Source: Rhodocyclaceae bacterium (GTDB lineage: Bacteria; Pseudomonadota; Gammaproteobacteria; Burkholderiales; Rhodocyclaceae). From it: 19,535 nucleotides of DNA. The position numbers and the translations under genes were made by a program. The notes beneath the pieces are model-generated. The model was not told where the DNA came from, made no database searches, and saw only the letters and a list, made by a program, of their open reading frames with translations. This document shows, in pieces, positions 3,650 to 19,238 of this stretch (position 1 is its first letter; each line of letters opens with the position of its first letter). Location of the stretch: assembly GCA_018262875.1 (NCBI GenBank), contig JADFDL010000009.1, forward strand, positions 1-19,535, written 5' to 3'.

Positions 3650-3660
3650 CGTGCCGACAA

Positions 3661-5013: not shown

Positions 5014-5169
5014 GGAGTATCTCCCGTTTGACAAATCCACCACGGAGCGGAAGCCGCCGCGGTTTACGATGCCCCCGAAGGGGCGTGGCTACGCGCCCAG
5101 TCCGCTCGGAGCGGAAAGCTGGACAGCGAATTCTATTTTCCCGTCTGGCGGCAGGCAGCGCAGGGCGTC

Positions 5170-5343: not shown

Positions 5344-5404
5344 CAGGTGGCGTCAAGGCTTACGACGAAGGACTGTTTGAATTTAGTGGGAACGCTGCCC
5401 GTAC

Positions 5405-5429
5405 GGATTCCCGCTTCCGCTGGAATGAC
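5405..5429 (-). repeat. 25-bp inverted repeat, copy B
   Basis: Read on the minus strand, this copy matches copy A (625-649) at 22 of 25 positions and keeps the GCGGGAATCC half exactly. The outer arms ATTCC and GGAAT can still pair. It lies in the gene-poor gap, away from any coding end. Confidence 0.6.
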
Positions 5430-5518
5430 ATCCTTTCCAGCCCCCGGTCAGGACACCCCAGTCAAGGCATGTGCAGCCCTGAAACTCCGATGTGGGAGCG
5501 GCGTCCACGCCAATCAGG

Positions 5519-6025
5519 CTACCGCTTGACGATCACCCCGCAGGCCGTGCGCGCGCCGGAATTGCCGGTGGGCTGGGTCTTGAAGTCGTCGGGCGCGGCG
5601 TGGACGATGACGCCCTTGCCGAGAATTCCTGAAGCGCCCTCGAAAGTCAGTCCCGGCAGCACGGCGACGAGCTTCGCATTGCCGTAGGAATCCGTCTCCA
5701 GCATCGGCATGTCGCCAGCGTGGTGCGGCCCCTTGTGCGGGTGGCCGTGCGGATGGCCGCCGGGGTTGAAGTGGCCGCCGGCGCTGGTGCCGTCGGGCGC
5801 ACTGCAGTCGCCCTTCTCGTGGATATGGAAGCCGTGCGCGCCGGGCGTGAGGCCGGCGACGTGGGCCGTGACCTCGATGTCGTGGCCCCTCTGCCTGAAG
5901 ACAACGGTGCCGGTGGTGGTGTGGCCCTTGGTCGGGGCCAGCGTGGCCTCGACGGACGGGCCGCGGCCATGGCCGGCACAGGCGGACAGCAAGACGGCGG
6001 CGGCAGCGATCAGGGTGGTTTTCAT
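5519..6025 (-). CDS. sodC: Cu/Zn superoxide dismutase, lipoprotein form
   Basis: This 168-residue enzyme disproportionates superoxide in the periplasm. The N-terminus carries a lipoprotein signal with lipobox LSAC (C16), so it is probably anchored to a membrane. Copper ligands are H67 and H69 in GFHIHE, the bridging H85 in GGHFNP and H142 in VHAAPDD. Zinc ligands are the loop histidines and D105 in HHAGDMP. C74 and C162 should form the conserved disulfide. An extra His-rich stretch (GGHPHGHPHKGPHH, 89-102) widens the metal-binding loop. The length is normal. The start is supported by GAGG about 8 nt upstream. It lies 30 nt after the next upstream gene on the same strand, so it may be transcribed from the fdh operon. 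A decayed second copy lies at 3526-3649. Confidence 0.95.
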   Translation of the reverse strand: MKTTLIAAAAVLLSACAGHGRGPSVEATLAPTKGHTTTGTVVFRQRGHDIEVTAHVAGLTPGAHGFHIHEKGDCSAPDGTSAGGHFNPGGHPHGHPHKGPHHAGDMPMLETDSYGNAKLVAVLPGLTFEGASGILGKGVIVHAAPDDFKTQPTGNSGARTACGVIVKR

Positions 6026-6055
6026 TTTGTGTCGCCTCTGTTGGGAGGAGCAGAA

Positions 6056-6358
6056 TTATTTTTTCCTGGCAGGGGCCGCGGCTGCCGTTGGCGCGGCGGC
6101 CGACGGCGACGATCCGGGATCCTCGCAGGCCGGCGATGCGGCGGCCTTCTTGCCGTGCTCCTTCATGTAGCGCTCGACGGTGCGGTTCTGCGATTTGCAC
6201 AGTTGGTAGGCTGCCACTTTGTTGCCGTGTGCCGCCTTCTCGCCGGCTTCCGCCGCCTTCGCCTTGGCTTCGTCGTTCGGCGGTGGCAGCTTGGCCTGGG
6301 CCGCACCGAAGGCCAGTGCCGCCGTCATGGCGAGGATGAGCTTCAGCTTCATGTTCAT
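6056..6358 (-). CDS. Small periplasmic protein, function unknown
   Basis: This 100-residue protein has a clear Sec signal peptide (MNMKLKLILAMTAALAFGAA, cleavage near AQA at residue 22). The mature part starts with a Lys/Ala/Glu-rich helix (about 30-48), followed by YQLCKSQNRTVERYMKEHGK and an Ala/Pro/Lys tail. Two cysteines (C54, C78) could pair; there is no CXXCH haem motif. GGGAGGA is placed 3 nt before the ATG. It lies 14 nt after fdhC and 30 nt before sodC, which suggests co-transcription with both. I do not recognise a named family. Confidence 0.7.
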   Translation of the reverse strand: MNMKLKLILAMTAALAFGAAQAKLPPPNDEAKAKAAEAGEKAAHGNKVAAYQLCKSQNRTVERYMKEHGKKAAASPACEDPGSSPSAAAPTAAAAPARKK

Positions 6359-6372
6359 GATTCCTCCCTTGG

Positions 6373-7380
6373 TCAGGAATGCGCGGCGGCCGTGCTGCCC
6401 TGCCCCGCCTTCGTTGGTTCGGCCGGCTGCTGCCTGGCTTGGTTGTACCAGAGCTCGTGGTGCTCCTTCGCCCAGGTTTCGTCAACCTGGCCGGTGCGCA
6501 TCGCGGCGTAGGCGCCTTCCATGCCGATGGTGCCGATATAGATGTGGCCCAGCATCAGGCAGACGAACAGCAGGGCGCCGACAGCGTGGATGATGTTGAC
6601 CGTCTGCAGGGTGTCGCGCGTCTGGCCGAAATTGGGGAAGTCCATGATGAGGCCGCTGATGCTGACGGCCAGCCCGAGGAAAACGACGCCGAACCAGAAC
6701 ATGAACTTCTCGCCGAAATTGAAGCGCCAGGACGGGACGTGCTCGCCGTCGAGCAGGCCGCCGGCCTTGGCGATCCAGTTTGCATCCTCGGCCTTCCAGA
6801 AGTTGTCTTTCACGAAGAGGAAGAACGAGACGATGATGGACAGCAAAAACAGCGGTCCGATGAAGTTGTGCAGGTTCTTGCCGATCGCCGCGAGCCAGCT
6901 GAACAGCGTGTAGCCGATCACCGGCAGCAGGACATGCTTGCCGAACAGCAGTACCAGTCCGGAGATGGCCAGGATGACGAAGCTGATTGCCATGCTCCAG
7001 TGCGCCACCCGCTCCACGCTGCTGAAGCGTTCGATGTGGCGCCCGGTCGGCGGAGCCGTCAACCGGATCATGCCACGCCGCAGATAGAACAGGCCGATGG
7101 CGACCACTACCGCGCACAGCGCGATACCGCCGTAGAGCGAGATCGGGCCGTTGCGCAGTTCGCGCCAGGTTTCGCCGCCGGACTGGATCAGGACGCCGCT
7201 TTCGGGTCCCCTAACGGTGGTAATGCCGGCCTGACCGGAACGCGCATCGCGCCAGAGTTGCGCCTGGTTGTGCGCTTCCTTGGCTTGCGCCTGCGCCGGT
7301 GCGTCCGCCGCGACGGCCGAAACGGCGCCGAGCAGTGCGGCGACCAGCAGGCCCTGCATAAATGCGAGGATGCTTTTCAT
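6373..7380 (-). CDS. fdhC: Formate dehydrogenase gamma subunit, cytochrome b membrane anchor
   Basis: This 335-residue membrane subunit passes electrons from the FdhAB periplasmic module to quinone through two b-type haems. A signal peptide (residues 1-25) and a periplasmic segment of about 55 residues precede the core. Four transmembrane helices lie at about 83-100, 128-147, 170-190 and 226-246, with a further one at 262-284. Candidate haem ligands are H127 (VERVAHWSM), H171 (KNLHNFIG), H265 (IIHAVGAL) and H279 (LGHIYIG). The ATG at 7380 has AGGAGG 5 nt upstream. An open frame extends much further upstream, but that part overlaps the neighbouring lipoprotein gene in another frame and has no membrane or signal character, so the shorter form is correct. 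The last 30 residues are a low-complexity tail. Confidence 0.93.
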   Translation of the reverse strand: MKSILAFMQGLLVAALLGAVSAVAADAPAQAQAKEAHNQAQLWRDARSGQAGITTVRGPESGVLIQSGGETWRELRNGPISLYGGIALCAVVVAIGLFYLRRGMIRLTAPPTGRHIERFSSVERVAHWSMAISFVILAISGLVLLFGKHVLLPVIGYTLFSWLAAIGKNLHNFIGPLFLLSIIVSFFLFVKDNFWKAEDANWIAKAGGLLDGEHVPSWRFNFGEKFMFWFGVVFLGLAVSISGLIMDFPNFGQTRDTLQTVNIIHAVGALLFVCLMLGHIYIGTIGMEGAYAAMRTGQVDETWAKEHHELWYNQARQQPAEPTKAGQGSTAAAHS

Positions 7381-7388
7381 GTCGCCTC

Positions 7389-7616
7389 CTAGTTGCCGGT
7401 GCGGCGCGACTCGTCCTGCGCCTGGTTGCGGGCGCGCAGCGCCCCCTCCCACTTGGCCTTGTCGCCGCCGAACGGGGCGTTGCTCCAGGGCTGGGCGTCT
7501 TCCTTGCCCTGGTATTTGCCCTGTTTGTAGATGACCGTCCTGTCTCGGTCGCCGCAACCGGCGAGGCCCGCCCCGAAAGCGGCAGCGGCAGCGATCAGCA
7601 CGATGTGCGCATTCAT
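7389..7616 (-). CDS. Small lipoprotein encoded between fdhB and fdhC
   Basis: This 75-residue protein has a lipoprotein signal peptide ending in LAGC (C21). It is followed by a short, charged mature part of about 54 residues (TVIYKQGKYQGKEDAQPW, then a Trp/Lys-rich stretch, and QAQDESRRTGN). The ATG overlaps the fdhB stop codon as ATGA, with GGAGG 6 nt before it, and its own TAG lies in the fdhC ribosome binding site. The coupling on both sides argues for a real gene and a role with the dehydrogenase complex. I know no characterised homologue. It could be an assembly factor or a small extra subunit at the membrane face. Confidence 0.8.
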   Translation of the reverse strand: MNAHIVLIAAAAAFGAGLAGCGDRDRTVIYKQGKYQGKEDAQPWSNAPFGGDKAKWEGALRARNQAQDESRRTGN

Positions 7617-8227
7617 GACTTGCCTCCTTCCTTGGCAGCTTCCCGCTTGCCATAGGCCGTGCCCCAGCCGATCAGGTCGGCGCCCTTGCCGCGTTTGAGC
7701 ACGCGCTCGCGATAGATGTTGGAAATGGCCTCCGCGTCGCCGCCCAGCAGCGCCTTGGTCGCGCACATTTCCGCGCAGAGCGGCAGCTTGCCCTCGGCCA
7801 GGCGGTTGCGCCCGTACTTCTTGAACTCCTCGGCGGAGTGATCCTTTTCAGGCCCGCCGGCGCAAAAGGTGCACTTGTCCATCTTGCCGCGCATGCCGAA
7901 GGCGCCGCCCTGCGGGAATTGCGGTGCGCCAAACGGGCAGGCGTAGAAGCAGTAGCCGCAACCGATGCACAGATCCTTGTCGTGCAGCACCACGCCTTCG
8001 TCGGTCTGGTAGAAGCAGTCGACCGGGCAGACGGCCATGCAGGGCGCGTCGGTGCAGTGCATGCAGGCGACGGAGACGGAGCGCTCGCCGGGTACGCCGT
8101 CGTTGAGCGTGACGACACGACGGCGACTGATGCCCCACGGCACTTCGTGCTCGTTCTTGCAGGCAGTGACGCAGCCGTTGCATTCGATGCAGCGTTCGGC
8201 GTCGCAGAGAAATTTCATTCTGGCCAT
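7613..8227 (-). CDS. fdhB: Formate dehydrogenase beta subunit, four [4Fe-4S] clusters
   Basis: This 204-residue electron-transfer subunit has four cysteine groups: CIECNGCVTAC (13-23), CMHCTDAPCMAVC (55-67), CIGCGYCFYAC (87-97), and CTFC (119-122) completed by CAEMC (151-155). This is the pattern of FdnH/FdhB subunits that wire the Mo site to the cytochrome b subunit. It is shorter than E. coli FdnH (about 294 residues) and has no C-terminal transmembrane helix, so attachment to FdhC must be by protein contact. The ATG at 8227 has GGAGG 8 nt upstream; the longer GTG start would include that site. It begins 15 nt after fdhA and has no signal peptide, so it should be carried across by the Tat signal of FdhA. 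Confidence 0.95.
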   Translation of the reverse strand: MARMKFLCDAERCIECNGCVTACKNEHEVPWGISRRRVVTLNDGVPGERSVSVACMHCTDAPCMAVCPVDCFYQTDEGVVLHDKDLCIGCGYCFYACPFGAPQFPQGGAFGMRGKMDKCTFCAGGPEKDHSAEEFKKYGRNRLAEGKLPLCAEMCATKALLGGDAEAISNIYRERVLKRGKGADLIGWGTAYGKREAAKEGGKS

Positions 8228-8242
8228 TTTCGTATCCTCCAC

Positions 8243-11185
8243 TTACGCCCTGGCGACTTGGCAAATGGTCGTCTTGGTCTCCTGCATCATGGTCACCGAG
8301 TCGTAGCCGTAGGTCGTGGCGGTATTCACCGCCTCGCCGCGGACCACGGGGTGCGCCCCCTCCGGGTAGTAGTCGAGCAGGTCCTTGCCCTGCCAATGCC
8401 CGGAGAAATGGAACGGCATGAAGCAGGTGTCGGCGGCGACGCGCTCGGTGACCTGGGCGCGCACCTTGAGCTGGGCGCCGGTCGGCGTCTTCAACCAGAC
8501 CCACTCGCCGTCACGGATGCCGCGATCGTTGGCCGCCTTCGGATTGATCTCGACGAAGGCTTCCTGCTGCAGTTCAGCCAGCCAGGGATTGGAGCGGGTT
8601 TCCTCGCCCCCTCCCTCGTACTCGACCAGGCGGCCGGAGGTGAGGATGAGCGGGAATTTCTCGGCGATCTTGTCCTCGATATTCTTCTGCTGCAGCGACT
8701 TGTAAAGGGTCGGCATCCGCCAGAAGGCCTTCTTGTCGTCGTGCGTCGGATACTTGGCGACGAGATCCGGCCGCGTGCTGTAGATCGGTTCGCGGTGCTG
8801 CGGCACCGGATCGGGGAAGTTCCACACCACGGCGCGCGCCTTGGCGTTGCCGAAAGGATGGCAGCCATGATTCTTCATGACGACGCGAATGATGCCGCCG
8901 GAGGTATCGGTCTTCCAGTTCTTGCCCTCTGCCTTGGCCTTCTCCTCTTCAGTCAACTCGTCCCACCAGCCGAGCTTCTTCAGCAGCACGTGATCGAACT
9001 CGGGGTAGCCGAACTGCAGGTCGGCGCCCTTGGAAGCCGAGCCGTCTTCGGCCAGCAGGTTGACGCCGTCCTTCTCGACGCCGAAGTTGGCGCGGAAGTT
9101 GCCGCCGCCGTCCATGACGTGCTTGGAAGTGTCGTAGAGATTGGGCGTGCCGGGGTGCTTCAGTTCCGGCGAGCCGAAGCACGGCCACGGCAGGCCGAAG
9201 TAGTCCCCGTCGCAGGGCCCGCCCTTGGCGCGCAGCGTCTTCACGTCGAAGGTGTTCATGTGCTTCATGTGCAGTTTCAGCCGCTCCGGCGACTGGCCGG
9301 TGTAGCCGATGGTCCACACGCCGCGGTTGATCTCGCGCAGGATGGACTCCGTCTCGGGCTCGGTGCCGCCCTTGCCCTGCACCATCTTGTAGTTTTTCAC
9401 CAGCTCCTTGCCGAAGCCGAGCTTTTCCGCCAACTGGTACATGATCATCTGGTCGGTGCGCGACTCGAACAGCGGCTCGATCACCTTCTCCCGCCACTGC
9501 AGGGAGCGGTTCGAGGCCGTCGCCGAGCCGGAGGTCTCGAACTGGGTGCAGGCCGGCAGCAGGTACACGGCGCGGTTCGGGTTGAGGTCCTTCGCATCCG
9601 TCCCAGGCATCGCCGCCATGGCCGCCGTAGACGAAGGATAGGGATCGACCACCACCAGCAGGTCGAGCTTGTCCATCGCCTTCTTCATTTCGAGGCCACG
9701 CGACTGGGAGTTGGGCGCATGGCCCCAGTAGAAGACGGCCTTCAGGTTCGGATCCTGATCGATCAGATCGTTCTTCTCAAGCACGCCGTCGATCCAGCGC
9801 GAGACAGTGATGCCGGACTTGGTCATCATGCCTTCGCTGGCGAACTGTTTCTTCACCCACTCGAAGTCGACTCCCCATACACCGCACCAGTATTTCCAGG
9901 AGCCGATCGGGATGCCGTAATAGCCGGGCAGTGAATCCGGGTTGGGACCGATGTCGGTTGCCCCCTGCACATTGTCGTGGCCGCGATAGATGTTGGCGCC
10001 GCCGCCGGATTTGCCGACGTTGCCCAGCGCCAGTTGCAGGATGCAGGATGCGCGCACGAAGGCGTTGCCGATCGAGTGCTGCGTCTGGCCCATGCACCAG
10101 ACGATGGTCGAGGGCCGGTTCATGGCCATCGTCTCGGCCGCCTTGAAGAGCTGCTCCTCGGTCACGCCGGAAACCTCGAACGCCTTGTCGGGCGTCCATT
10201 TCGCCAGCACGTCCTCGCGCACCTTCTCCATGCCGAAGACGCGGTCGTTGATGTATTTCTTGTCCTCCCAGCCGTTCTTGAAGATGTGGTAGAGGATGCC
10301 GAACAGCACGGCGATGTCCGAACCGGAGCGGAAGCGGATGTACTGGTCGGCCTTGGCCGCGGTGCGCGTGAAGCGCGGGTCGCAGACGATCATCTTCGCG
10401 CCCGATTCCTTGGCATGCAGCGTGTGCAGCATCGACACCGGATGGGCCTCGGCCGCATTCGAGCCAATGAACAGCATCGCCTTGCTGTTCTGCATGTCGT
10501 TGTAGGAGTTGGTCATGGCGCCGTAACCCCAGGTGTTCGCCACGCCGGCCACGGTGGTGGAATGGCAGATGCGGGCCTGGTGGTCGCAGTTGTTCGTGCC
10601 CCAGAATGAGACGAACTTGCGCATGAGGTAGGACTGCTCGTTGCTGTGCTTGGAGGAGCCGATGAAGTACACCGAATCCGGACCGTCCGACTTGCGCAGC
10701 TCGAGCATCTTCGCGGATATCTCGTTCAATGCGACGTCCCAACCGATCTTCTGGTACTTGCCGTTGACCAGCTTCATCGGGTACTTGAGGCGCATCTCGC
10801 CGTGGCCGTGCTCACGGATCGCCGCGCCCTTGGCACAATGCGCGCCGAGGTTGATGGGCGAGTCGAACACCGGCTCCTGGCCGATCCAGACGCCGTTCTG
10901 CACCTCGGCGTCGATGGCGCAACCGACGGAGCAATGGGTGCAAACCGTGCGCCTGATCTCGACGCCGCCTTCCGGCTTGGCGTCGGCCGCCTCGGCCTTG
11001 CCGATCATGGCGAAGGGCAGATGGGCGGCGATCGCCGAAACGGCGGCGCCTGCGCCCGCCGTCACGCCGGAGCGCTTGAGGAAGGTGCGGCGGTCCATGG
11101 TTTCCGGCTGCAAGCCGGAGAGGCTCCGGTTGAGACGGCCGGCGCGCGCCGCCTGTGCCGTACTGGATTTTCTGGTCAGTACCAT
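8243..11185 (-). CDS. fdhA: Formate dehydrogenase alpha subunit, Mo-bis-MGD, cysteine type
   Basis: This 980-residue catalytic subunit oxidises formate to CO2 in the periplasm. The Tat motif DRRTFLKRSG (31-40) follows a 30-residue N-terminal extension. The longer start is chosen because GGAGGAGGT lies 6 nt before it. The [4Fe-4S] site is C82, C85, C89 and C117 (VCTHCSVGC and AHCAKG). The active-site residue in HQARICHSTTVAG is C207 (codon TGC at 10567-10565), next to H208, where many homologues have selenocysteine. The molybdopterin domains follow, with LGNVGKSGGGANIYRGH as the cofactor signature, and the C-terminal dinucleotide-binding domain includes LILTSGRLVEYEGGGEETRSNPWL. The length fits FdnG/FdhA. 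The gene is in the middle of the fdh operon, 18 nt after the Tat miniprotein. Confidence 0.97.
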   Translation of the reverse strand: MVLTRKSSTAQAARAGRLNRSLSGLQPETMDRRTFLKRSGVTAGAGAAVSAIAAHLPFAMIGKAEAADAKPEGGVEIRRTVCTHCSVGCAIDAEVQNGVWIGQEPVFDSPINLGAHCAKGAAIREHGHGEMRLKYPMKLVNGKYQKIGWDVALNEISAKMLELRKSDGPDSVYFIGSSKHSNEQSYLMRKFVSFWGTNNCDHQARICHSTTVAGVANTWGYGAMTNSYNDMQNSKAMLFIGSNAAEAHPVSMLHTLHAKESGAKMIVCDPRFTRTAAKADQYIRFRSGSDIAVLFGILYHIFKNGWEDKKYINDRVFGMEKVREDVLAKWTPDKAFEVSGVTEEQLFKAAETMAMNRPSTIVWCMGQTQHSIGNAFVRASCILQLALGNVGKSGGGANIYRGHDNVQGATDIGPNPDSLPGYYGIPIGSWKYWCGVWGVDFEWVKKQFASEGMMTKSGITVSRWIDGVLEKNDLIDQDPNLKAVFYWGHAPNSQSRGLEMKKAMDKLDLLVVVDPYPSSTAAMAAMPGTDAKDLNPNRAVYLLPACTQFETSGSATASNRSLQWREKVIEPLFESRTDQMIMYQLAEKLGFGKELVKNYKMVQGKGGTEPETESILREINRGVWTIGYTGQSPERLKLHMKHMNTFDVKTLRAKGGPCDGDYFGLPWPCFGSPELKHPGTPNLYDTSKHVMDGGGNFRANFGVEKDGVNLLAEDGSASKGADLQFGYPEFDHVLLKKLGWWDELTEEEKAKAEGKNWKTDTSGGIIRVVMKNHGCHPFGNAKARAVVWNFPDPVPQHREPIYSTRPDLVAKYPTHDDKKAFWRMPTLYKSLQQKNIEDKIAEKFPLILTSGRLVEYEGGGEETRSNPWLAELQQEAFVEINPKAANDRGIRDGEWVWLKTPTGAQLKVRAQVTERVAADTCFMPFHFSGHWQGKDLLDYYPEGAHPVVRGEAVNTATTYGYDSVTMMQETKTTICQVARA

Positions 11186-11203: not shown

Positions 11204-11404
11204 TTATATCCGCGTGGTTCGATAGTAGTTTTGCACGTGTGCGCTGAGGCGGTAGCCGTTGGCAGAGGCTTCCTTCTCGGCAACCCCGGTCGTCTGGGCC
11301 AGCAACGCCTTGCCGCCAATTGCGCCGGCAGCGGCGCCGGCCCCGCCCAGTCCGACCGACAGCAGAAAATTCCTGCGCTTGAGATCGGTATTCTTTCCAC
11401 TCAT
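11204..11404 (-). CDS. Formate dehydrogenase-associated Tat-signal miniprotein
   Basis: This 66-residue protein consists mostly of a twin-arginine signal: KRRNFLLSVGLGGAGAAAG (9-27) with a hydrophobic Ala/Gly-rich core. A mature part of about 30 residues follows (GYRLSAHVQNYYRTTRI at the end). Such miniproteins are typical just upstream of fdhA in betaproteobacterial formate dehydrogenase loci. They may serve as a Tat-exported small subunit or as an escort for FdhA; the function is not established. It lies 16 nt after the TorD-like gene and 18 nt before fdhA. GGAGGA precedes the ATG by about 6 nt. The length excludes an enzyme. Confidence 0.88.
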   Translation of the reverse strand: MSGKNTDLKRRNFLLSVGLGGAGAAAGAIGGKALLAQTTGVAEKEASANGYRLSAHVQNYYRTTRI

Positions 11405-11420: not shown

Positions 11421-12059
11421 TTACGACAGTTGCCCGATGCGGAAGTACGTTTTCTCGACATCCAGGAAAGCCCGCGCAAAACCGGCCAGGCTGCGGTAGA
11501 AGGCCGCCTCGGCCACACCATCGACGGCATCGCACAAGCGGCCGTAACAGGGGGCAATAAAGCGTGAAAAGAACTGCTCCTGGGCGGCATCGCGCCCGGC
11601 CGCGGGACGGCATTCGTCCAGGATCAGCTGGCGCATGACATCGGTCAATCCCGAGAAATGGTCTTCCGGTTCCTCTGCTGCGCCACGGCGTGCCAGCCCG
11701 TGACCCGCAAGCTGATCGCGCAACTCCACCAATGGTTTATCGTTCATGAACCCCGACAGGTAGTAGGACGCATACAACATCACTGCCGGCTTGCCGACGC
11801 CGATGAAGGTTTCATCGTACTCGGCGCGCACCGCCTCGGCGGTGGTTGCGCCGGCGGCACGCCGCAGCGCATTCCAGGCCTCGAAGAAGCGGGCCTCGGG
11901 AGCCTCGGCGTCCAGCGCCACGCTCTCCGCCAGAGCCCTGAGCAGTTCCGCATCGGGCGGAGCGTAGAACAGGTGTCCCAGCAGCCCGTAATGGTCCGCT
12001 CGCATCCTGTCCTGCGGATCGACCGGATATGCCGGGGCACTCTTCAGCGTGGCGACCAT
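11421..12059 (-). CDS. TorD/DmsD-family molybdoenzyme chaperone
   Basis: This 212-residue, all-helical cytoplasmic protein has no signal peptide. Family markers are EYDETFIG (80-87), the central PAVMLYASYYLSG (91-103), and EPEDHFSGLTDVMRQLI (130-146), which matches the conserved EPxDHxxxxxxVM motif of TorD-like chaperones. Members bind the Tat signal of an apo-molybdoenzyme and hold it until cofactor loading. Placement directly upstream of the Tat miniprotein and fdhA makes these the likely clients. The spacing is 7 nt from the polyferredoxin stop to this ATG, and no strong ribosome binding site is seen, so translational coupling to the upstream gene is likely. The C-terminal residues after 190 are ordinary. 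Confidence 0.88.
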   Translation of the reverse strand: MVATLKSAPAYPVDPQDRMRADHYGLLGHLFYAPPDAELLRALAESVALDAEAPEARFFEAWNALRRAAGATTAEAVRAEYDETFIGVGKPAVMLYASYYLSGFMNDKPLVELRDQLAGHGLARRGAAEEPEDHFSGLTDVMRQLILDECRPAAGRDAAQEQFFSRFIAPCYGRLCDAVDGVAEAAFYRSLAGFARAFLDVEKTYFRIGQLS

Positions 12060-12066: not shown

Positions 12067-14157
12067 TTATAGGTCAAATATGGTCGGCTCGACAGATTTG
12101 TTTTCCATCATGTCCATGACGCGGCAATCGGCGCACATCTGCAGGCGCCTGAGGGCATTGCCGCCGGCAAACATGGAATGCCCCGAGAGCCGGCCGAGCA
12201 GGGTTTCGATCATCTGGCGCGTGCCGAAGGGTTTATTGCAGCGCACACAGGGAAACGGCTCAGCCTCGTTGAGGATGCGCTCGCGCTTCGCTTCGGTGGC
12301 GGACAGCAGGCGCGACTCGAGCGACAGCGCGCCTTCCGGACAGGTTTTGACGCACAGACCGCACTGGACGCAGTTGCGCTCGATAAACTTCAGGCGCGGC
12401 ATGTCCGGCGCATCCGTCAGGGCGCGGGTCGGACAAGCACTGACGCAGGACATGCACAACGTGCATTTGGCCTTATCCACGTGAACCGTGCCGAAGGGCG
12501 CGCCTGCCACAAGAGGAATCGATTCCTGCGGCTGGCTTGCCAGTTTCGCCAAGTGCTCCAGGGAAAACTCCAGCGCCCGTCGTTTTCCATCGGGAAGATT
12601 GAAAACGGCGGGTTCGCTGATCGTATCGGCCGGGGTCAGGCTCCAGATTGGATTTTGCAGCGCAGCATGGTCGTCTGCCGCCATCAGGATGAAATGGCTT
12701 CCGCCATAACCAAGGGCGTTGAGAATCGCTTCGCCATAGCCGGTCTGTTTGCGCAGTGCCTCGACATAACCCTCCGGCTCATGCGACTGATACAAAATGA
12801 CGCACTGGGATGCCCCAAAAGCGACCGCTCCGAGCAGCACATCCAGTCCGGTCGAAGCCACGTCGTGTACCTCAAGCGGTATTACCCTGGCCGGCAACCC
12901 CCTGCCTTGCTGGCCGAGCCGCATCAGCAGTTCCCGCCCGGCTTTGCCGTCATGGAAGAGGATGCAGCCATTGTGTCCGCCAGCCGCTGCATACGCAGCA
13001 AGCATCTTGCGCAGGCGCAAACCGATGTCCGACGGCCGCGGGTAGGCATAGCGCACAGCCCCCGTCGGGCAGACCGCATGGCATCCGCCGCAACCCAGGC
13101 ACAGGTGAGGATCGATCTCGGCGCTGTCCTCCGCCGAGTGGATCGCCCCCGTGGAGCAAACGTCGATGCACTGCCCGCAGCCGACGATCTTGTTGCGGCT
13201 GTGCGCGCACAGACCGGGCTCGATTTCGGCGTAGCGCGGCTTCTCGAACTCGCCAACCAGGCCAAGCAGTTCCTGCGCCGCCTTTGCCTGGTCGAGCGGG
13301 TCGCGTCCAGGCGCCAGATAGCCCATGGGCAAATGAGGAAGGCGAATCGATGGGGTGGCGGACAGGTCGAGGATGAGGTCGGCGCTCTCTTCCCGGGCGT
13401 TTTCCGTCCGGTTGAAGTCAATGGCGCCGATGCCGCCGCAGGCGGCCACGCAGTCACGATGGCCACTGCACTTCCCGGGATCGATCTGGTAGGCGTAGCC
13501 GATTGCCTCTTCCGGGCAGGCCTTCAGGCAGGCATTGCAGCGCGTGCAAAGCGCCAGATCGATCGGGTTGTCTTGTTGCCAGGTTATCTTGAATTGACCG
13601 ACGTACCCATTGATCGATATCGATTTTCCCGAGTGCACCGGGTATTCGTGCCGCACCGGGAGCTGGCCGCTGCGCGCAGAGGTCAGGAGCACCGAAACAT
13701 CGAGCCGCTCCCGCATTTGCTCGGCCCAGGCCAGAGCCGCCTCAGCCGGGCCAATGATGAGGAGTGAACCGGTCGACACATAGGAAACGGCGGGAACCGG
13801 GTCCGGGTTGGGGATTCCGGTCAGGGACAGAAGCGCCGCGATCTTTGCTTGCGCCAGCCTCCCCTCGTCCGACCAACCCGCCAGTTCGCGAATGTTCACG
13901 AATTGGAGGCGGCCCGAAAACCCGGCTTCTTCTGCCAACTCCTGAAATAGCGGAGCTTCCTGGGTGCAGGATACGATCAGTTCGGCGCCTCCCCGAAGAT
14001 CGCCCGTGAAGCGATGGATTTCCTGACGACAGAGGGCCTGGCAAACAGGTACCGGGGCATCCAGCGCAAGGATTCCTGCAAGCACAGCCCCATCCAGGGC
14101 GATGGAGCCATTGCAACTGCACAACTTGAGCTTCTTTTCCTGAATCGGCATGTCCAT
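12067..14157 (-). CDS. Multi-cluster [4Fe-4S] protein with HdrA-like N-terminus
   Basis: This 696-residue cytoplasmic iron-sulfur protein has an N-terminal region (9-110) resembling the thiol domain of HdrA: LCSCNGSI, a CQALC pair (39-43), VSCTQEAPLFQELAEEAG (62-79) and VNIRELAGWS. A segment LLIIGPAEAALAWAEQ (132-147) looks like a worn Rossmann motif. Cysteine groups follow: CTRCNACLKAC (204-214), CSGHRDCVAAC (230-240), CGQCIDVC (327-334), CLGCGGCHAVC (353-363), CTLCMSCVSAC (565-575), CVQCGLCVKTC (596-606), CVRC (637-640) and CADC (675-678). Residues 395-500 resemble the MvhD/FlpD fold but lack its cysteines. No signal peptide is seen. It is second in gene order to DUF3305/DUF3306 and ahead of the chaperone. 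It is probably an electron carrier linked to formate dehydrogenase or its maturation; the partner is unknown. Confidence 0.85.
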   Translation of the reverse strand: MDMPIQEKKLKLCSCNGSIALDGAVLAGILALDAPVPVCQALCRQEIHRFTGDLRGGAELIVSCTQEAPLFQELAEEAGFSGRLQFVNIRELAGWSDEGRLAQAKIAALLSLTGIPNPDPVPAVSYVSTGSLLIIGPAEAALAWAEQMRERLDVSVLLTSARSGQLPVRHEYPVHSGKSISINGYVGQFKITWQQDNPIDLALCTRCNACLKACPEEAIGYAYQIDPGKCSGHRDCVAACGGIGAIDFNRTENAREESADLILDLSATPSIRLPHLPMGYLAPGRDPLDQAKAAQELLGLVGEFEKPRYAEIEPGLCAHSRNKIVGCGQCIDVCSTGAIHSAEDSAEIDPHLCLGCGGCHAVCPTGAVRYAYPRPSDIGLRLRKMLAAYAAAGGHNGCILFHDGKAGRELLMRLGQQGRGLPARVIPLEVHDVASTGLDVLLGAVAFGASQCVILYQSHEPEGYVEALRKQTGYGEAILNALGYGGSHFILMAADDHAALQNPIWSLTPADTISEPAVFNLPDGKRRALEFSLEHLAKLASQPQESIPLVAGAPFGTVHVDKAKCTLCMSCVSACPTRALTDAPDMPRLKFIERNCVQCGLCVKTCPEGALSLESRLLSATEAKRERILNEAEPFPCVRCNKPFGTRQMIETLLGRLSGHSMFAGGNALRRLQMCADCRVMDMMENKSVEPTIFDL

Positions 14158-14237
14158 GTAGACCCGTCATTTCAAGAATCGGCAGCAACTGCGTGCCATG
14201 CAGGCACAAGCGCATCCCTACCCGAACCGGGTCGATT

Positions 14238-14708
14238 CTATTCCTTGTTTTCCTCCGGCGCTTCAGGCTCCGTCGGCGAAGCCGGGGACTTCGCCCGTGA
14301 AGCGATATCTGCTTCTTCAGCATGGTTTTCAAGTGCGGCCGGGGCCTGCTTTTCGTCATCCTGCGGGAACAGCAGACCACGCGCCTGTTCCAGCCGGCGC
14401 AGCATTTCCTCCGGGATCGGCTCGAACGTGTTGTAGTCGTCGATATATACGTCAAGGCCGTCCATCTGGTTGAACTGCCCGGAGTGAAAGAGTTTTTTCA
14501 GCGCCGCGCGCTTTAACGATTCTTCGACCTGTGGCTGGAGAAAACCCGTGAAGTCGCTGGAGAAGTCGAGCGCATCCAAAGATGGCAGCTCCGCAACGAC
14601 GGCCGGAACCGCCGGCGGCGCAACATCGGGCGACTCGCTTGCCGTCGCACGCTTCAAGCGCGACCAGCGCGACAGGAATTTCTCCTTCTCCTCCATCCGT
14701 TCGACCAT
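14238..14708 (-). CDS. DUF3306-family protein
   Basis: This 156-residue protein shows the DUF3306 pattern. A charged N-terminus with FLSRWSRLKR (11-20) is followed by a Pro/Ala linker, LPSLDALDFSSDFTGFLQP (41-59), then LKRAALKKLFHSGQFNQMDG (65-84), LDVYIDDYNTFEPIPEEML (85-103), and a low-complexity acidic and Pro/Ala tail (about 118-156). It starts 1 nt after the DUF3305 stop codon, so the two are translationally coupled. DUF3305 and DUF3306 genes are repeatedly found next to formate dehydrogenase genes, but their function is unknown. No cysteines, signal peptide or membrane segment are seen, so a soluble cytoplasmic adaptor or assembly role is the simplest inference. Confidence 0.85.
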   Translation of the reverse strand: MVERMEEKEKFLSRWSRLKRATASESPDVAPPAVPAVVAELPSLDALDFSSDFTGFLQPQVEESLKRAALKKLFHSGQFNQMDGLDVYIDDYNTFEPIPEEMLRRLEQARGLLFPQDDEKQAPAALENHAEEADIASRAKSPASPTEPEAPEENKE

Positions 14709-14709
14709 C

Positions 14710-15171
14710 CTAGGTTTTCAGCCTTGAACTGGCATAGCGACCGCCTTTTTTCTTTTCTTCCGGCTTGTAGTGTCGATTGACGAAACCCGCCACCCAGTCG
14801 CGGATTTCTGCCGGCATGGGTACGCCATCCACTTGTTCGCCAGCGTCCATCTTGCGCGCCGCCACGCCATAGCTCACTGTCACCAGAGTCGGGCATGCCA
14901 GGTCGTTCTCGAAGCGCCACAGGACAAATACCCGCGGCTCGGGCAAGGTTATGTTGGCGAAATAGAACTCGGCCTCGTCGGTGTACAGTTCGAGCGCAAA
15001 GCCGGCATGGAGCCACTGTTCGCGCCGCGTATCCTCGTAGAGGCGGCGCGGAACGGCGTCCAAGCCACTGTCGGGAATCACGCCGATCGCCTCCCATTGA
15101 AAATCCGCCCACTTGTTCGCGAGTATCTTCCGTTCCATAATTACAGCGAGGCGGATTCCCGATTCAGTCAT
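14710..15171 (-). CDS. DUF3305-family protein
   Basis: This 153-residue protein carries the DUF3305 start pattern VIMERKILANKW followed by FQWEAIGVIPD (24-34). It is rich in aromatic residues through HAGFALELYTDEAEFYFANI and VFVLWRF, and ends with PAEIRDWVAGFVNRHYKPE and a basic tail. The start at 15171 was kept because family members have residues before VMER; the internal ATG at 15138 is the alternative. It is the first gene of the fdh operon, facing the moaA group across about 107 bp. The function is unknown. It has a single cysteine and no signal peptide, so it is likely soluble and cytoplasmic. Its invariant pairing with the next gene suggests a complex. Confidence 0.85.
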   Translation of the reverse strand: MTESGIRLAVIMERKILANKWADFQWEAIGVIPDSGLDAVPRRLYEDTRREQWLHAGFALELYTDEAEFYFANITLPEPRVFVLWRFENDLACPTLVTVSYGVAARKMDAGEQVDGVPMPAEIRDWVAGFVNRHYKPEEKKKGGRYASSRLKT

Positions 15172-15278
15172 ATCCGGCGATTTCTCTTCCCGTCAGTGTT
15201 GCGGCCTGGGAACGACGTTTGATTTGAAGGGTCGATACGCCTGATAGTAATCAATCCCATTTGCAAAGGCAAAGAACC
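15172..15278. promoter_or_regulatory. Divergent promoter region of the fdh operon and moaA
   Basis: This 107-bp gap separates the first fdh-operon gene (minus) from moaA (plus), so it must carry both promoters or share control of them. On the plus strand, TTGATT at 15219-15224 and TGATAG at 15242-15247 are spaced 17 bp and are a weak sigma-70 candidate for moaA. I see no convincing FNR box, ModE site or molybdenum-cofactor riboswitch. The placement is firm and the elements are tentative. Confidence 0.5.
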
Positions 15279-16358
15279 GTGCGCAACGAATCCCTGACGC
15301 CAGATGCCACTCCGCACGAGCTGGAAGGCTTCATTCCGCACACCACACCCGCGACCTCGGCCCATGCCCCAGGTACCCTGGTGGACAAGTACGGCCGCCA
15401 CATCACCTACATCCGCCTGTCGATCACCGACCGCTGCGACTTCCGCTGCTTCTACTGCATGGCGGAGGAGATGGAGTTCCTGCCGCGCGACCATCTGCTG
15501 AGCCTGGAGGAGTGCCTGCGCGTGATCCGCACCTTCGTCGGCATGGGCGTGACCAAGGTGCGCATCACCGGCGGCGAGCCGCTGGTGCGGCGCAACGCCC
15601 TCTGGCTGATGCGCGAGGCTGGAAAGCTCGAAGGCCTGAAGGAACTGGTGGTCACCACCAACGGCTCGCAGCTCGACCGCTACGCGGCAGAAATGCGCGA
15701 AGCCGGCGTCAAGCGCGTGAACATCAGCCTCGACACCCTGCGGGCCGACCGCTTCAAGTCGATCACGCGCGTCGGCGAACTGGACAAGGTACTGCGCGGC
15801 ATCGACGCGGCAATTGCCGCCGGCTTCGACGGCATCAAGCTCAACACGGTGATGATGCGCGGCACCAACGAAGACGAGTTCGTCGACCTGGTGCGCTTCG
15901 CCGCCGGCAAGGACATCGACATTTCCTTCATCGAGGAGATGCCGCTCGGGACGGTCGACCATCCGCGCGCCGACACCTACTTCAGCTCCGACGACGCCCT
16001 GTCCCTGCTGCGCCCGCACTTCGAACTGGTCAGCTCGGCCGAGAGCACCGGCGGCCCGGCGCGCTACTGGCGCATCCCCGGCACGCGCAGCAAGGTCGGC
16101 TTCATTTCGCCCCACTCGCACAACTTCTGCGACAGTTGCAACCGCGTGCGCATTACCTGCAAGGGCGAACTCTATCCCTGCCTCGGCCAGAACGATGCCC
16201 TGCCCCTCATGCCGGTGCTGCGCAGCCATCCAGAAGACGATGCCCCGCTGCGCCAGGCCATCGTCGACTCGATGGGCATCAAGCCGAAGGGGCACGACTT
16301 CAACGAACAAATGCACGATCCGAAAGTCGTCCGCTTCATGTCGATGACGGGGGGCTGA
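15279..16358 (+). CDS. moaA: GTP 3',8-cyclase MoaA (radical SAM)
   Basis: This enzyme performs the first step of molybdenum cofactor synthesis, converting GTP to the cyclic intermediate with radical SAM chemistry. The N-terminal [4Fe-4S]-SAM motif is CDFRCFYC (C53, C57, C60), followed by KVRITGGEPLVRR. The C-terminal substrate-binding cluster is C284, C287 and C301 (CDSCNRVRITCKGELYPC). The protein ends in the required Gly-Gly tail (MSMTGG). The length, about 359 residues, is slightly above the usual 330-340 because of an N-terminal extension of about 30 residues. A GTG start at 15279 is preferred, with AAAGG 9 nt upstream; a TTG at 15261 is the alternative and would overlap that site. It leads the plus-strand cofactor group. 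Confidence 0.95.
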   Translation: MRNESLTPDATPHELEGFIPHTTPATSAHAPGTLVDKYGRHITYIRLSITDRCDFRCFYCMAEEMEFLPRDHLLSLEECLRVIRTFVGMGVTKVRITGGEPLVRRNALWLMREAGKLEGLKELVVTTNGSQLDRYAAEMREAGVKRVNISLDTLRADRFKSITRVGELDKVLRGIDAAIAAGFDGIKLNTVMMRGTNEDEFVDLVRFAAGKDIDISFIEEMPLGTVDHPRADTYFSSDDALSLLRPHFELVSSAESTGGPARYWRIPGTRSKVGFISPHSHNFCDSCNRVRITCKGELYPCLGQNDALPLMPVLRSHPEDDAPLRQAIVDSMGIKPKGHDFNEQMHDPKVVRFMSMTGG

Positions 16359-16362: not shown

Positions 16363-16419
16363 GTAGGTCGGCCTTCAGGCCGACTTGGGCCGCTGCTGTC
16401 GGGCTAAAGCCCGACCTAC
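16363..16419. repeat. REP-like inverted pair between moaA and fdhD
   Basis: Two 22-bp hairpins face each other: 16363-16384 (GTAGGTCGGCC...) and 16398-16419 (...GCCCGACCTAC), separated by 13 bp. Each is a palindrome around CTTCAG or CTAAAG. The whole pair can also fold as one larger structure. It ends 1 nt before the fdhD start codon. A matching pair lies at 19235-19325. Confidence 0.88.
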
Positions 16420-16420
16420 C

Positions 16421-17302
16421 ATGCAAACCATGCCTTATCGTCCACTTCTCACCGACGCCGCCCGCCCGGCCACCGTCACCATCTCCGCCATCAACGAGCG
16501 CGGCGAAGCCGTGCCGACGCAGATCGCCGGCGAGCATCCGCTGACGCTCTACCTCGACAAGCGCGAGATCGTCACGCTGATGACGCTCGGCGGCGCGCCG
16601 GAGGCGCTGGCCATCGGCTACCTGCGCAACCAGCGTCTGGTCGAACGCCTGGAGGACATCGCCGCCGTGCAGGTCGACTGGGAGACGGATTCGGTGGCCG
16701 TCACCACGACTCGTTCCGCAGACGATCTCGACGCGCGCATGGGAAAACGCACCGTCACCACGGGCTGCGGCCAGGGCACGATATTCGGCGACCTGATGGA
16801 AGAAATCGACAAGGTCTCGCTGCCGGTGGAGGCCCGCCTCGACGAGAACACCCTCTACGGCCTGCTCGACGCGGTGCGCCACCACGAATCGATCTACAAG
16901 CAGGCCGGCGCCGTGCACGGCTGCGCGCTGGCCCGGGGCACGGAAATCCTCATGTTCGTCGAGGACATCGGCCGCCACAATGCGGTGGATGCGATTGCCG
17001 GCCGGATGTGGCTGGACGGCCTCGACGGCAGCGACAAGATCTTCTACACCACCGGCCGCCTCACCTCGGAGATGGTGATCAAGACGGCGCAGATGGGCAT
17101 CCCTTTCCTCGTCTCGCGCTCCGGCCTGACGCAGATGGGCTACGACCTGGCGCAGCGCACCGGCATGACCATGATCGGCCGCTCGCAGGGCAAGCACTAC
17201 TTGCTGTTCACCGGCGCGGGGCGTTTCAAGAGAAGGAACGAAACCGCTCTCGACACAGAGCGCACAGAGGCACAGAGAACACAGAGAGAATCGTCCTTAT
17301 GA
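16421..17302 (+). CDS. fdhD: FdhD sulfurtransferase for formate dehydrogenase
   Basis: FdhD carries sulfur from a cysteine desulfurase to the Mo-bis-MGD cofactor, which formate dehydrogenase needs for activity. This 293-residue protein shows the family features: PLTLYLDKREIVTLMTLGG (40-58), the loop cysteine C116 in TTGCGQGTIFGDL (one cysteine only, where E. coli has two), HGCALARGTEILMFVEDIGRHNA (166-188, cofactor-binding) and FYTTGRLTSEMVIKTAQMG. The ATG at 16421 is directly after a REP-like pair, leaving no Shine-Dalgarno sequence; ATG 16430 is an alternative. From about residue 277, the C-terminus (LDTERTEAQRTQRESSL) is encoded by a CACAGAG-type repeat and is unlike FdhD proteins. The enzyme core is complete, so it is probably functional and serves FdhA. 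Confidence 0.94.
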   Translation: MQTMPYRPLLTDAARPATVTISAINERGEAVPTQIAGEHPLTLYLDKREIVTLMTLGGAPEALAIGYLRNQRLVERLEDIAAVQVDWETDSVAVTTTRSADDLDARMGKRTVTTGCGQGTIFGDLMEEIDKVSLPVEARLDENTLYGLLDAVRHHESIYKQAGAVHGCALARGTEILMFVEDIGRHNAVDAIAGRMWLDGLDGSDKIFYTTGRLTSEMVIKTAQMGIPFLVSRSGLTQMGYDLAQRTGMTMIGRSQGKHYLLFTGAGRFKRRNETALDTERTEAQRTQRESSL

Positions 17303-17371
17303 ATAGCTTTTGCTTTTCTCTGTGTCCTCTGTGTCCTCTGTGTCCTCTGTGTCCTCTGTGTCCTCTGTGTT
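17254..17371. repeat. CACAGAG/CTCTGTG inverted structure with a 9-bp tandem repeat
   Basis: The right arm, 17318-17371, is the 9-mer CTCTGTGTC repeated five times and ended by CTCTGTGTT. The left arm, about 17254-17289, is an imperfect complement built on ACACAGAG and CACAGAGG. A loop of about 27 bp (17290-17316) separates them. The left arm lies inside the 3' end of fdhD and the right arm stops 2 nt before the mobA ATG. It should fold into a long hairpin in the mRNA. Confidence 0.9.
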
Positions 17372-17373: not shown

Positions 17374-17967
17374 ATGAGCTTTCTTCCTATGCCTGAAAAA
17401 CACATTACCGGCCTGATCCTCGCCGGCGGGCTCGGCCGCCGCATGGGCGGGCGCGACAAGGGCCTGCAGCCCTTCCGCGGCAAACCGATGGCGGCCAGGG
17501 CCATCGCGCGCCTGGCGCCGCAGGTGGCCGCCCTGCTCATCAACGCCAACCAGAACCTGGAGGCCTACGCCGCCTTCGGCTACCCGGTCATCCCCGACCG
17601 CATCGCCGGCTTCGCCGGGCCGCTGGCCGGCCTGCACGCCGGGCTGCTCGCCTGCGAGACGCCGCTGCTGGTCACGACCCCCTGCGACTCGCCCTTTCTG
17701 CCCGAAGACCTGGTTGCACGACTGTGCGACGCGCTGGAGGCGGCCGGCGCCGACCTCGCCGTGGCAAAGACCGGCGAGCAGCCGCATCCGGTATTCTCCC
17801 TGGTGCGCCGCGAGGTGCTGGACGGCCTGACGGCCTTCCTCGAGACCGGCGGCCGCAAAGTCGACGCCTGGTACGCCGCGCTCAAGGTGGCCGAGGTACC
17901 CTTCCCCGACGAGCGCGCCTTCGCCAACATCAACACGCTGGAAGAATTGAACGAACTGGAACCATGA
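17374..17967 (+). CDS. mobA: Molybdenum cofactor guanylyltransferase MobA
   Basis: MobA adds GMP to molybdopterin to make the dinucleotide cofactor used by DMSO-reductase-family enzymes such as FdhA. The 197-residue length is normal. The nucleotide-binding signature LAGGLGRRMGGRDKGL (16-31) is intact. VTTPCDSPFLP (about 99-109) supplies the Mg2+-binding aspartate, and HPVFSLVRR is the usual substrate-loop segment. The start at 17374 is 2 nt after the tandem repeat, with an alternative ATG at 17389; neither has a clear ribosome binding site. Its TGA overlaps the moeA start as ATGA, so the two are translationally coupled. Confidence 0.93.
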   Translation: MSFLPMPEKHITGLILAGGLGRRMGGRDKGLQPFRGKPMAARAIARLAPQVAALLINANQNLEAYAAFGYPVIPDRIAGFAGPLAGLHAGLLACETPLLVTTPCDSPFLPEDLVARLCDALEAAGADLAVAKTGEQPHPVFSLVRREVLDGLTAFLETGGRKVDAWYAALKVAEVPFPDERAFANINTLEELNELEP

Positions 17968-19238
17968 CCTCGCTTCTGAAGACCCTCTCCTGCGCCGACG
18001 GCTACGATCCCGAATCCCTCAGCGTCGCCCAGGCCCGCAAGCTGATTCTCGACCTGCTCGAACCCGTCGCCGGCATGGAGCGCATCTTCGTGCGCAGCAC
18101 GCTCGGCCGCGTGCTGGCGGAAGACGTGCTATCGACAGTGAACGTGCCGGGCCACGACAACTCGGCCATGGACGGCTATGCCGTGCGCTTCGCCGACCTC
18201 GCCGCCGAAGGCGACACCGTGCTGCGGCTGGCCGGCACCGCCTTCGCCGGGCGCACCTTCGCGGGCCGCGTCGAGACGGGCCAGTGCGTGCGCATCATGA
18301 CCGGCGGCGTAATCCCCGAAGGCGCCGACACGGTGGTCATCCAGGAAGTGGTGCGGGCCGAGAACGACCGCATCGTCGTCCCGCCGAAGCAGCGGCAGGG
18401 ACAGCACATCCGCCGCGCCGGCGAGGACTTGCGCGCCGGCGAACCGGCGATCCGCGCCGGCAAGATCATCAGCCCGGCGGAGCTCGGCCTGATCGCCTCG
18501 CTCGGCGTCGCCGAGCTGAACGTCAGGCGTCGCCTGCGCGTCGCCTTCTTCTCCACCGGCGACGAGCTGTGTTCGGTCGGCACGCCGCTCAAGAAGGGAG
18601 AGGTGTACGACAGCAACCGCTATACCCTCTTCGGCATGCTGACGCGCCTGGGTTGCGAAGCGATCGACCTCGGCGTGGTGCGCGACGAGCCGGCCGCGCT
18701 GGAGGCGGCCTTCCGCCAGGCGGCCGCGCAGGCCGACGTGATCCTCACCAGCGGCGGCGTCTCCGTCGGCGAGGCCGATTTCATCCGCGGCATGATGGGG
18801 AAGCTGGGTGAAGTGGCCTTCTGGAAGATCGCCATGCGACCGGGGCGTCCGATGGCCTTCGGCCGGATCGGCAGCGACAAAAATCCAGCGTGGCTGTTCG
18901 GCCTGCCCGGCAACCCGGTGGCCGTGATGGTGACCTTCTATGGGATCGTACGCGAAGCGCTGCAGAAGTTGATGGGCGTCTCGCCGGTCGAGCCGCTGCC
19001 GCAGTTCCGCGTGCCCTGCGTCACCGCGCTGAAGAAGCGGCCCGGCCGCAGCGAGTTCCAGCGCGGCATCCTGTTCCGGGAAAACGGCGAATGGAAAGTG
19101 CGCGCCACCGGCACGCAGGGTTCCGGCGTGCTGCGCTCGATGTCGGAGGCGAACTGCATCATCGTCGTTGAGCACGAGCGCGGCAACGTCGAGCCGGGCG
19201 AACTCGTCGACGTGCAGCCCTTCGAAGGGCTGGTGTAG
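17964..19238 (+). CDS. moeA: Molybdopterin molybdenumtransferase MoeA
   Basis: MoeA inserts molybdate into adenylated molybdopterin, the step before MobA acts. This 424-residue protein shows the MoeA N-terminal domain with GHDNSAMDGYAVRF (about 53-66) and MTGGVIPEGADTVV. The MoCF domain follows with FFSTGDELC, VYDSNRYTL and TSGGVSVGEADF. Next come KIAMRPGRPMAFG and GLPGNPVAVMVTF, which bind the pterin and phosphate. The C-terminal barrel (domain IV) is complete. The ATG at 17964 overlaps the mobA stop. The TAG stop at 19236-19238 lies inside a REP-like hairpin, so the end of this gene has been set by, or taken into, the repeat. Confidence 0.95.
   Translation: MTSLLKTLSCADGYDPESLSVAQARKLILDLLEPVAGMERIFVRSTLGRVLAEDVLSTVNVPGHDNSAMDGYAVRFADLAAEGDTVLRLAGTAFAGRTFAGRVETGQCVRIMTGGVIPEGADTVVIQEVVRAENDRIVVPPKQRQGQHIRRAGEDLRAGEPAIRAGKIISPAELGLIASLGVAELNVRRRLRVAFFSTGDELCSVGTPLKKGEVYDSNRYTLFGMLTRLGCEAIDLGVVRDEPAALEAAFRQAAAQADVILTSGGVSVGEADFIRGMMGKLGEVAFWKIAMRPGRPMAFGRIGSDKNPAWLFGLPGNPVAVMVTFYGIVREALQKLMGVSPVEPLPQFRVPCVTALKKRPGRSEFQRGILFRENGEWKVRATGTQGSGVLRSMSEANCIIVVEHERGNVEPGELVDVQPFEGLV

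Follow-up and report, generated by a model that had tools for sequence, protein, structure and literature searches.

The window analysed here is a stretch of 19,535 nucleotides from a Rhodocyclaceae bacterium (assembly GCA_018262875.1, contig JADFDL010000009.1, genome 54% complete), in which a formate dehydrogenase (FDH) operon on the minus strand is led by three genes encoding a DUF3305 protein, a DUF3306 protein, and a polyferredoxin. These three genes probably constitute a dedicated cytoplasmic maturation module for an exported FDH3-type formate dehydrogenase. The enzyme was assigned to the FDH3 type because its beta subunit FdhB exceeded the cut-off of the FDH3_beta model (Table 1); the model was scanned on the FdhB of the window, and two plasmid records annotate fdh3B next to the module. 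The operon runs in the order DUF3305, DUF3306, polyferredoxin, TorD/NarJ-family chaperone, FdhX, FdhA, FdhB, and FdhC, with 1 base between the two DUF genes and 7 bases between polyferredoxin and TorD, and FdhA carries a twin-arginine motif (RRTFLK at residue 32). The three leading open reading frames (ORFs) lie where the initial annotation had placed them, all on the minus strand, and the Pfam scores of both DUF proteins are far over the cut-off.

Co-occurrence and gene order across genomes

Occurrence was surveyed in 299 genomes of the phylum of the window (its own genome included; 292 with a completeness of 90% or more and a contamination of 5% or less). The best four candidates for the polyferredoxin and the best two for FdhA were scored per genome, and FdhA was counted at E ≤ 1e-150 only. 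DUF3305 was found in 54 genomes, spread over 32 of the 181 genera, and in none of the 14 control genomes; FdhA was found in the identical set of 54, and the polyferredoxin in 55, i.e., the same 54 and one further genome (G186), by a profile built partly from DUF3305-positive sample genomes, with which distant relatives lacking DUF3305 may be missed. Fisher's p for DUF3305 versus the polyferredoxin was 4e-59; shared ancestry inflates all p-values given here, which are descriptive. DUF3305 and FdhA were at most 12 kb apart in 54/54 genomes, and polyferredoxin and DUF3305 in 53/54 (33 kb in G016), which bears out the proposal made at the outset that the three genes are coupled with one another and with formate dehydrogenase. 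The FdhD sulfurtransferase was present in 175 genomes, all 54 module genomes among them. FdhE, a rubredoxin-like protein with CxxC metal sites that serves as an accessory factor of periplasmic FDHs in E. coli (available text of PMC10609526), was detected in 45 genomes, only two of which (G204, G233) carry the module. The 175 FdhD genomes comprised 2 with module and FdhE, 52 with the module only, 42 with FdhE only, and 79 with neither (p = 3e-6, inflated by kinship), and this avoidance is interpreted as reflecting two accessory sets that replace each other, one per enzyme type. Both the shared set of genomes and the pairing with FdhD in the near absence of FdhE (2/54) favour a role in maturation.

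Gene order was compared in the best 80 of at least 524 loci, i.e., the nearest relatives of the window, mostly Betaproteobacteria by title. Polyferredoxin and TorD were detected in all 80, DUF3306 and FdhA in 78 each, and DUF3305 in 77, and the genes detected up to TorD and FdhA were collinear in 80/80 loci; misses fall at contig ends, with the exception of locus L017. A second set comprised 40 loci from 39 sample genomes outside the order of the window, with its own score thresholds (the other 15 positive genomes are not part of it). The labels used for these loci, gamma for another order within the class of the window and alpha for another class of its phylum, were derived from kinship and named plasmid relatives. 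DUF3305, DUF3306, FdhA, FdhB, and FdhC were present in 40/40, the polyferredoxin in 38 (absent from L103, where it lies 33 kb away, and from L113), TorD in 37, FdhX in 32, and FdhD in 17. In L113, a second FDH locus of genome G174, a single open frame of 380 residues (8638–9777) spans DUF3306 and TorD, the only such case among the loci scanned and one that could be an assembly error.

A shorter polyferredoxin paralogue (511–517 residues) directly follows a TorD-like gene in G186 and G375, adjoining a different molybdoenzyme (paralogue, TorD-like gene, and molybdoenzyme operon at L135 2945–10328 and L141 4694–10670). In G375, the TorD-like gene matched PF02613 with 100.6 bits and the adjoining enzyme has molybdopterin domains; in G186, the TorD-like gene reached only 26 bits to the TorD profile of the present analysis, with no NCBIfam match, and the nearest NCBIfam models of the enzyme, ArrA and PhsA, were both below cut-off. 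Neither DUF3305 nor FdhD was found in the G186 genome; G375 was covered over a 20-kb stretch. The collinearity, the joint DUF3306–TorD frame, and the position of this paralogue all favour maturation.

Extra genes stand in alphaproteobacterial FDH3 clusters (L138 5333–8875, L140 11170–13449, and 23 of the 40 alpha/gamma loci). Among these 40, a biotin/lipoate-ligase-like protein (BPL_LplA_LipB_2) was found in 23, DUF6505 in 21, DUF6352 in 15, and an Mrp/NBP35-type iron-sulfur (FeS) carrier in 12; the alphaproteobacterial representatives are candidates for further members of the assembly line. The Mrp/NBP35 carrier, which also occurs somewhere in 27 of the 80 betaproteobacterial loci, may speak for maturation too, although Mrp is a common gene.

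Domain make-up of the module proteins

The polyferredoxin contains six complete four-cysteine groups of the [4Fe-4S] kind (Cys13/15/43/64, 204/207/210/214, 317/327/330/334, 353/356/359/363, 565/568/571/575, and 596/599/602/606), in agreement with the initial count of at least six, together with a group at 230/(His233)/236/240, in which histidine stands where cysteine is expected, and a CxxC..CxxC metal site (637/640/675/678). Most aligned relatives start at the residue matching the second ATG (14151), not 14157.

HdrA consists of an N-terminal four-cysteine domain, a thioredoxin-reductase-like part with an inserted ferredoxin, and a C-terminal ferredoxin, and the same order is found in the polyferredoxin, where the thioredoxin-reductase-like part is a remnant. 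The best five PDB matches of a profile of residues 6–195 were HdrA sequences (E 8e-7 to 5e-4), and residues 125–306 could be aligned by structure with HdrA chain 7bkd_a over 180 of its 446 residues and with thioredoxin reductases over about 115 of about 305; the HdrA-type N-terminus and the worn Rossmann-like segment of the initial annotation were thereby substantiated. Given the small aligned share of HdrA and the alteration of its flavin adenine dinucleotide (FAD) turn from GGGVAG to GPAEAA, the polyferredoxin appears unlikely to bind flavin. It differs from HdrA in lacking a complete FAD-binding thioredoxin-reductase domain and in that its N-terminal domain and inserted ferredoxin can be wholly absent. 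Among the 20 ORFs scanned in this window of a 54% complete genome, neither HdrB nor HdrC was identified.

The [2Fe-2S] cluster of MvhD/FlpD is carried by cysteines. Residues 376–552 match the MvhD fold by structure (Foldseek E about 0.1, poor global scores), whereas their sequence profile found no MvhD, and the alignment retains one glycine and one arginine as its invariant columns; with no conserved cysteine, no [2Fe-2S] cluster is expected. The cysteine-free MvhD-like region proposed earlier thus stood as a structural likeness, not as a sequence match.

Kinship to HdrA and MvhD was therefore borne out, but the HycF-like C-terminus, the best hint at a partner, had been overlooked. Here, two [4Fe-4S] motifs followed by the quartet C637xxC640-x34-C675xxC678 match HycF over profile positions 9–130 of 139. 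According to the available text of PMC9474812, the C-terminal extension of HycF holds a single metal, tentatively iron, at Cys117, 120, 155, and 158 (CxxC-x34-CPxC), in a positive patch opposite acidic residues of the molybdenum subunit FdhF and near Arg122, and also contacts HycB. Two [4Fe-4S] clusters and the CxxC-x34-CxxC quartet are thus common to both proteins, and Lys642, two residues past the second quartet cysteine, occupies the position equivalent to that of Arg122 in HycF. The polyferredoxin end differs in being fused to HdrA/MvhD parts, and the 20 window ORFs scanned include no identified gene for a [NiFe] hydrogenase, the kind of complex to which HycF belongs. By analogy, the HycF-like end is the main hint that the polyferredoxin may meet a molybdenum formate dehydrogenase, and the location of the HycF quartet near the FdhF interface (PMC9474812) would favour maturation.

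Ligand conservation was assessed in a 26-row alignment (6 beta, 12 alpha, and 7 gamma rows, and L095, which is from the class of the window yet has an alpha-type polyferredoxin). All rows keep the ligands of both core ferredoxins and of the CxxC..CxxC site unchanged, except for Cys356, which is missing in all 7 gamma rows; the quartet spacing is 32–37 in 26/26 (34 in the window), and position 642 is lysine in 17 and threonine, serine, or alanine in 9. Cys13, 15, 43, and 64 are kept in 19/19 domain-bearing rows (6 beta, 12 alpha, L095), the domain being absent from 7/7 gamma rows. The inserted ferredoxin is found only in the 6 beta rows, in all of which His233 is invariant, and its second motif (CxxHxxCxxxC, residues 230–240, about 13438–13470) possibly binds a His-ligated [4Fe-4S] cluster. 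Since the ligand set is invariant within each architecture, the protein looks like a conserved rebuild without flavin, not like the decayed version that had been assumed.

The N-terminal ligands are also missing from six short forms found within the order of the window, in which all eight ligands of the first core ferredoxin are retained. Since these forms and the gamma rows (7) do without it, the HdrA-type N-terminus is not an essential part of the polyferredoxin, whose irreducible core comprises the Rossmann remnant, the ferredoxin, the MvhD-like domain, and the HycF-like end. In a tree calculated from 431 shared core columns of 52 sequences, the short form L145 is sister to the long forms L047 and L062 (support 100) and the gamma forms cluster with the G186/G375 paralogues (support 99), which indicates that the head was lost or gained more than once; the remaining order-level short forms are weakly placed (52–73).

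A pattern search found no twin-arginine translocation (Tat) motif in DUF3305, DUF3306, or the polyferredoxin, in line with the earlier remark that the polyferredoxin has no export signal, though its 19-residue Kyte–Doolittle (KD) hydropathy rises beyond 1.6 at four places, the highest peak (1.79, residue 437) falling within the MvhD-like domain; no such stretch above 1.6 occurs in DUF3305 or DUF3306. The AlphaFold2 model of DUF3305 (predicted local distance difference test score 90) had no PDB match at E ≤ 0.001. In the consensus of 119 DUF3306 sequences, the conserved parts are a basic N-terminal stretch around RWSRRK and the segment DGLD.YidDY, the rest being variable, a pattern that would fit a flexible adaptor. 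That dmsD-fdhGHI operons are preceded by DUF3305 and DUF3306 (60%) is already on record, with a 'fer4' gene in a figure legend (available text of PMC4464133). A functional description of the DUF3305/DUF3306 module was not found in the open-access literature searched, outside of which most subscription papers lie, and neither were the chimeric make-up, the 54/54 pairing, or the role proposed here.

Proposed role in maturation and rival explanations

From the observed domain make-up, ligand conservation, co-occurrence, and synteny, the following order of steps is proposed. FdhD and the molybdenum cofactor (Moco) genes would supply sulfurated bis-molybdopterin guanine dinucleotide, and the TorD-type chaperone, acting together with DUF3306 (and DUF3305), would hold the unexported FdhA. 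The polyferredoxin, predicted to stay in the cytoplasm, would dock onto FdhA(B) via its HycF-like end, where the contact could be FdhB, as the HycF extension touches HycB (PMC9474812), and its [4Fe-4S] chain would pass electrons or assembled clusters to the nascent enzyme, such that, prior to export by Tat, the FeS cluster and the molybdenum site are filled in the correct oxidation state. A more specific version is put forward only tentatively, namely that the flavin-less HdrA-MvhD-HycF wire reduces the molybdenum centre or the FeS cluster of the unfinished enzyme, as a required electron input coupled to sulfuration by FdhD and gated by TorD-DUF3306. In this version, the existence of short forms would make the HdrA-type head an electron inlet that is optional.

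The nearest functional precedent is NapF, described in the available text of PMC10609526 as a cytosolic four-cluster protein that binds NapA and is required for its cluster reconstitution in vitro. The likeness would lie in the proposed role, i.e., a cytosolic FeS helper in the maturation of a Tat-exported molybdenum-bis-pyranopterin guanine dinucleotide enzyme (PMC10609526). With FdhE, the polyferredoxin would share an accessory role for periplasmic FDHs and has CxxC metal sites in common (PMC10609526), but it has no FdhE Pfam match. In Shewanella oneidensis, an 'iron-sulfur cluster-binding protein' (SO_4506) adjoins the chaperone FdhT (SO_4507), FdhA (SO_4509), and FdhD (SO4503) (available text of PMC5826389 and PMC2535785), an order that fits the gammaproteobacterial loci; orthology is here taken from gene order alone. 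The SO_4503–4509 region appears to carry the module genes, and direct testing would be feasible there. What is at stake is the source of electrons and clusters for molybdoenzyme maturation, FdhE being missing from 52/54 genomes with this type of FdhA. If the module is required, the missing parts for heterologous FDH3 production are named, two DUF families gain a role, and parts related to electron-bifurcating complexes have been re-used for enzyme assembly.

Several observations weigh against maturation. Up to seven clusters are more than in any molybdoenzyme chaperone known to us, and an electron route would fit them too. At L017 (12701–14055), module and TorD are followed by no FdhA in the remaining 1.35 kb, where an unrelated frame runs to the contig end; L113 is an FDH locus with DUF3305 and the joint DUF3306–TorD frame yet without a polyferredoxin of its own (the genome has one elsewhere, L114), and TorD was below threshold in 3/40 alpha/gamma loci (L105, L109, L115). 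The polyferredoxin has another architecture than NapF and scored below the cut-off of TIGR00402 (58.1 versus 102.2 bits), and loss of NapF had little effect in E. coli or Wolinella (available text of PMC10609526). The proposed role is based on comparison of sequences and predicted structures. Neither of the two refuting conditions named in the initial annotation applied: the similarity to HdrA is real, and FdhA was near DUF3305 in 54/54 genomes, L017 being the one exception outside the sample.

Of the two functions considered in the initial annotation, maturation is the more likely and a cytoplasmic electron route the less likely, neither being proven. The latter, the chief rival although considered rather unlikely, would have the polyferredoxin link FDH3, as a cytoplasmic pool or at the inner face of FdhC, with a soluble acceptor (ferredoxin, NAD), like HdrA/MvhD in methanogens. 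HdrA, MvhD, and HycF are electron carriers whose folds the polyferredoxin matches, and its cluster ligands are intact; moreover, the ferredoxin-like E. coli proteins HydN/YsaA can raise the dye activity of FDH-H and were proposed as alternative FDH-H electron routes, cofactor activation being judged unlikely (available text of PMC6004506). However, with a twin-arginine motif in FdhA and no export signal in the polyferredoxin, the mature partners would lie on opposite sides of the membrane. The remnant of the flavin domain is without the FAD turn, no HdrB, HdrC, or hydrogenase gene could be identified in the 20 ORFs scanned, and the tie to TorD, DUF3305, and DUF3306 and the paralogue beside a non-FDH enzyme would be left unexplained. 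A redox sensor or gatekeeper, which would sense the cytoplasmic redox state or oxygen and keep FdhA from being released by TorD/Tat as long as anaerobic conditions are not reached, is improbable: the HycF metal site has been suggested as a redox-dependent regulator of FdhF binding (available text of PMC9474812), but sensing would not call for as many as seven clusters in a chain, and the ligand invariance would point to electron passage. That the genes are mere passengers in a Moco/FDH region is hardly credible. Synteny can outlast function, and the genomes share ancestry, so that counts are not independent; yet co-occurrence holds in 54/54 over 32 genera despite varied arrangement, with polyferredoxin genes that elsewhere are divergently oriented or lie several kb off (33 kb in G016).

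Feature coordinates and further observations

Features of the module, the FDH operon, and the Moco genes are listed in Table 1; MoaA, FdhD, MobA, and MoeA are oriented opposite to the fdh operon, from 15261.

Table 1 Features identified in the window, with strand and supporting matches
Feature	Position	Strand	Evidence
DUF3305 protein, 153 aa, first operon gene	14710–15171	-	Pfam PF11749, 157.1 bits (cut-off 25)
DUF3306 protein, 156 aa	14238–14708	-	Pfam PF11748, 80.8 bits (cut-off 25)
Polyferredoxin (696 aa), chimera of HdrA, MvhD, and HycF types; probable start 14151	12067–14157	-	
HdrA-type N-terminal domain, residues 1–120 (Cys13, 15, 43, 64)	13798–14157	-	Profile and structure
Truncated thioredoxin-reductase-like domain with inserted ferredoxin (Cys204–240, His233), residues 121–306	13240–13797	-	Structure alignment
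HdrA-type C-terminal ferredoxin, residues 307–375	13033–13239	-	phmmer to HdrA 8rvv, E 3.7e-19, residues 286–374
MvhD-like domain without cluster ligands, residues 376–552	12502–13032	-	
HycF-like ferredoxin and CxxC-x34-CxxC metal site, residues 553–690	12088–12501	-	
TorD/NarJ-family chaperone	11421–12059	-	PF02613, 85.9 bits (cut-off 22.2)
FdhX, small Tat-type protein, KRRNFLL near start	11204–11404	-	TIGR02811, 48.9 bits (cut-off 48.45)
FdhA catalytic subunit	8243–11185	-	Pfam molybdopterin domains; TIGR01591, 466 bits (below cut-off 666)
FdhB, FDH3-type beta subunit; real start probably few codons in	7613–8242	-	NF038355 FDH3_beta, 348.7 bits (cut-off 240)
FdhC, cytochrome b gamma subunit; start uncertain	6373–7653	-	TIGR01583, 171.7 bits (cut-off 115.85), match from residue 207
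MoaA, divergent from operon	15261–16358	+	TIGR02666, 373 bits (cut-off 284), match from residue 40
FdhD sulfurtransferase	16385–17302	+	PF02634, 262.6 bits (cut-off 27.2); both NCBIfam FdhD models below cut-off
MobA	17374–17967	+	TIGR02665, 242 bits (cut-off 152)
MoeA, within ORF 17724–19238	18018–19238	+	NF007960, 577 bits (cut-off 440), match from ORF residue 99

Five plus-strand ORFs at 2627–6511 of the window (2627–3112, 3109–3522, 3637–4920, 4917–5318, and 5720–6511) had no Pfam match at E ≤ 0.01. On a Variovorax plasmid (L139, 15663–15914), a small ORF between FdhB and FdhC carries the PLSDB/RGI label 'CAE-1 beta-lactamase', and its place inside the fdh operon suggests that this is probably a misannotation. 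Between FdhD and MobA or at the end of these genes, a 17-base repeat is located at 17254–17286, and a 9-base unit (CTCTGTGTC) is repeated in tandem at 17318–17370 (5.9 copies, 100% match).

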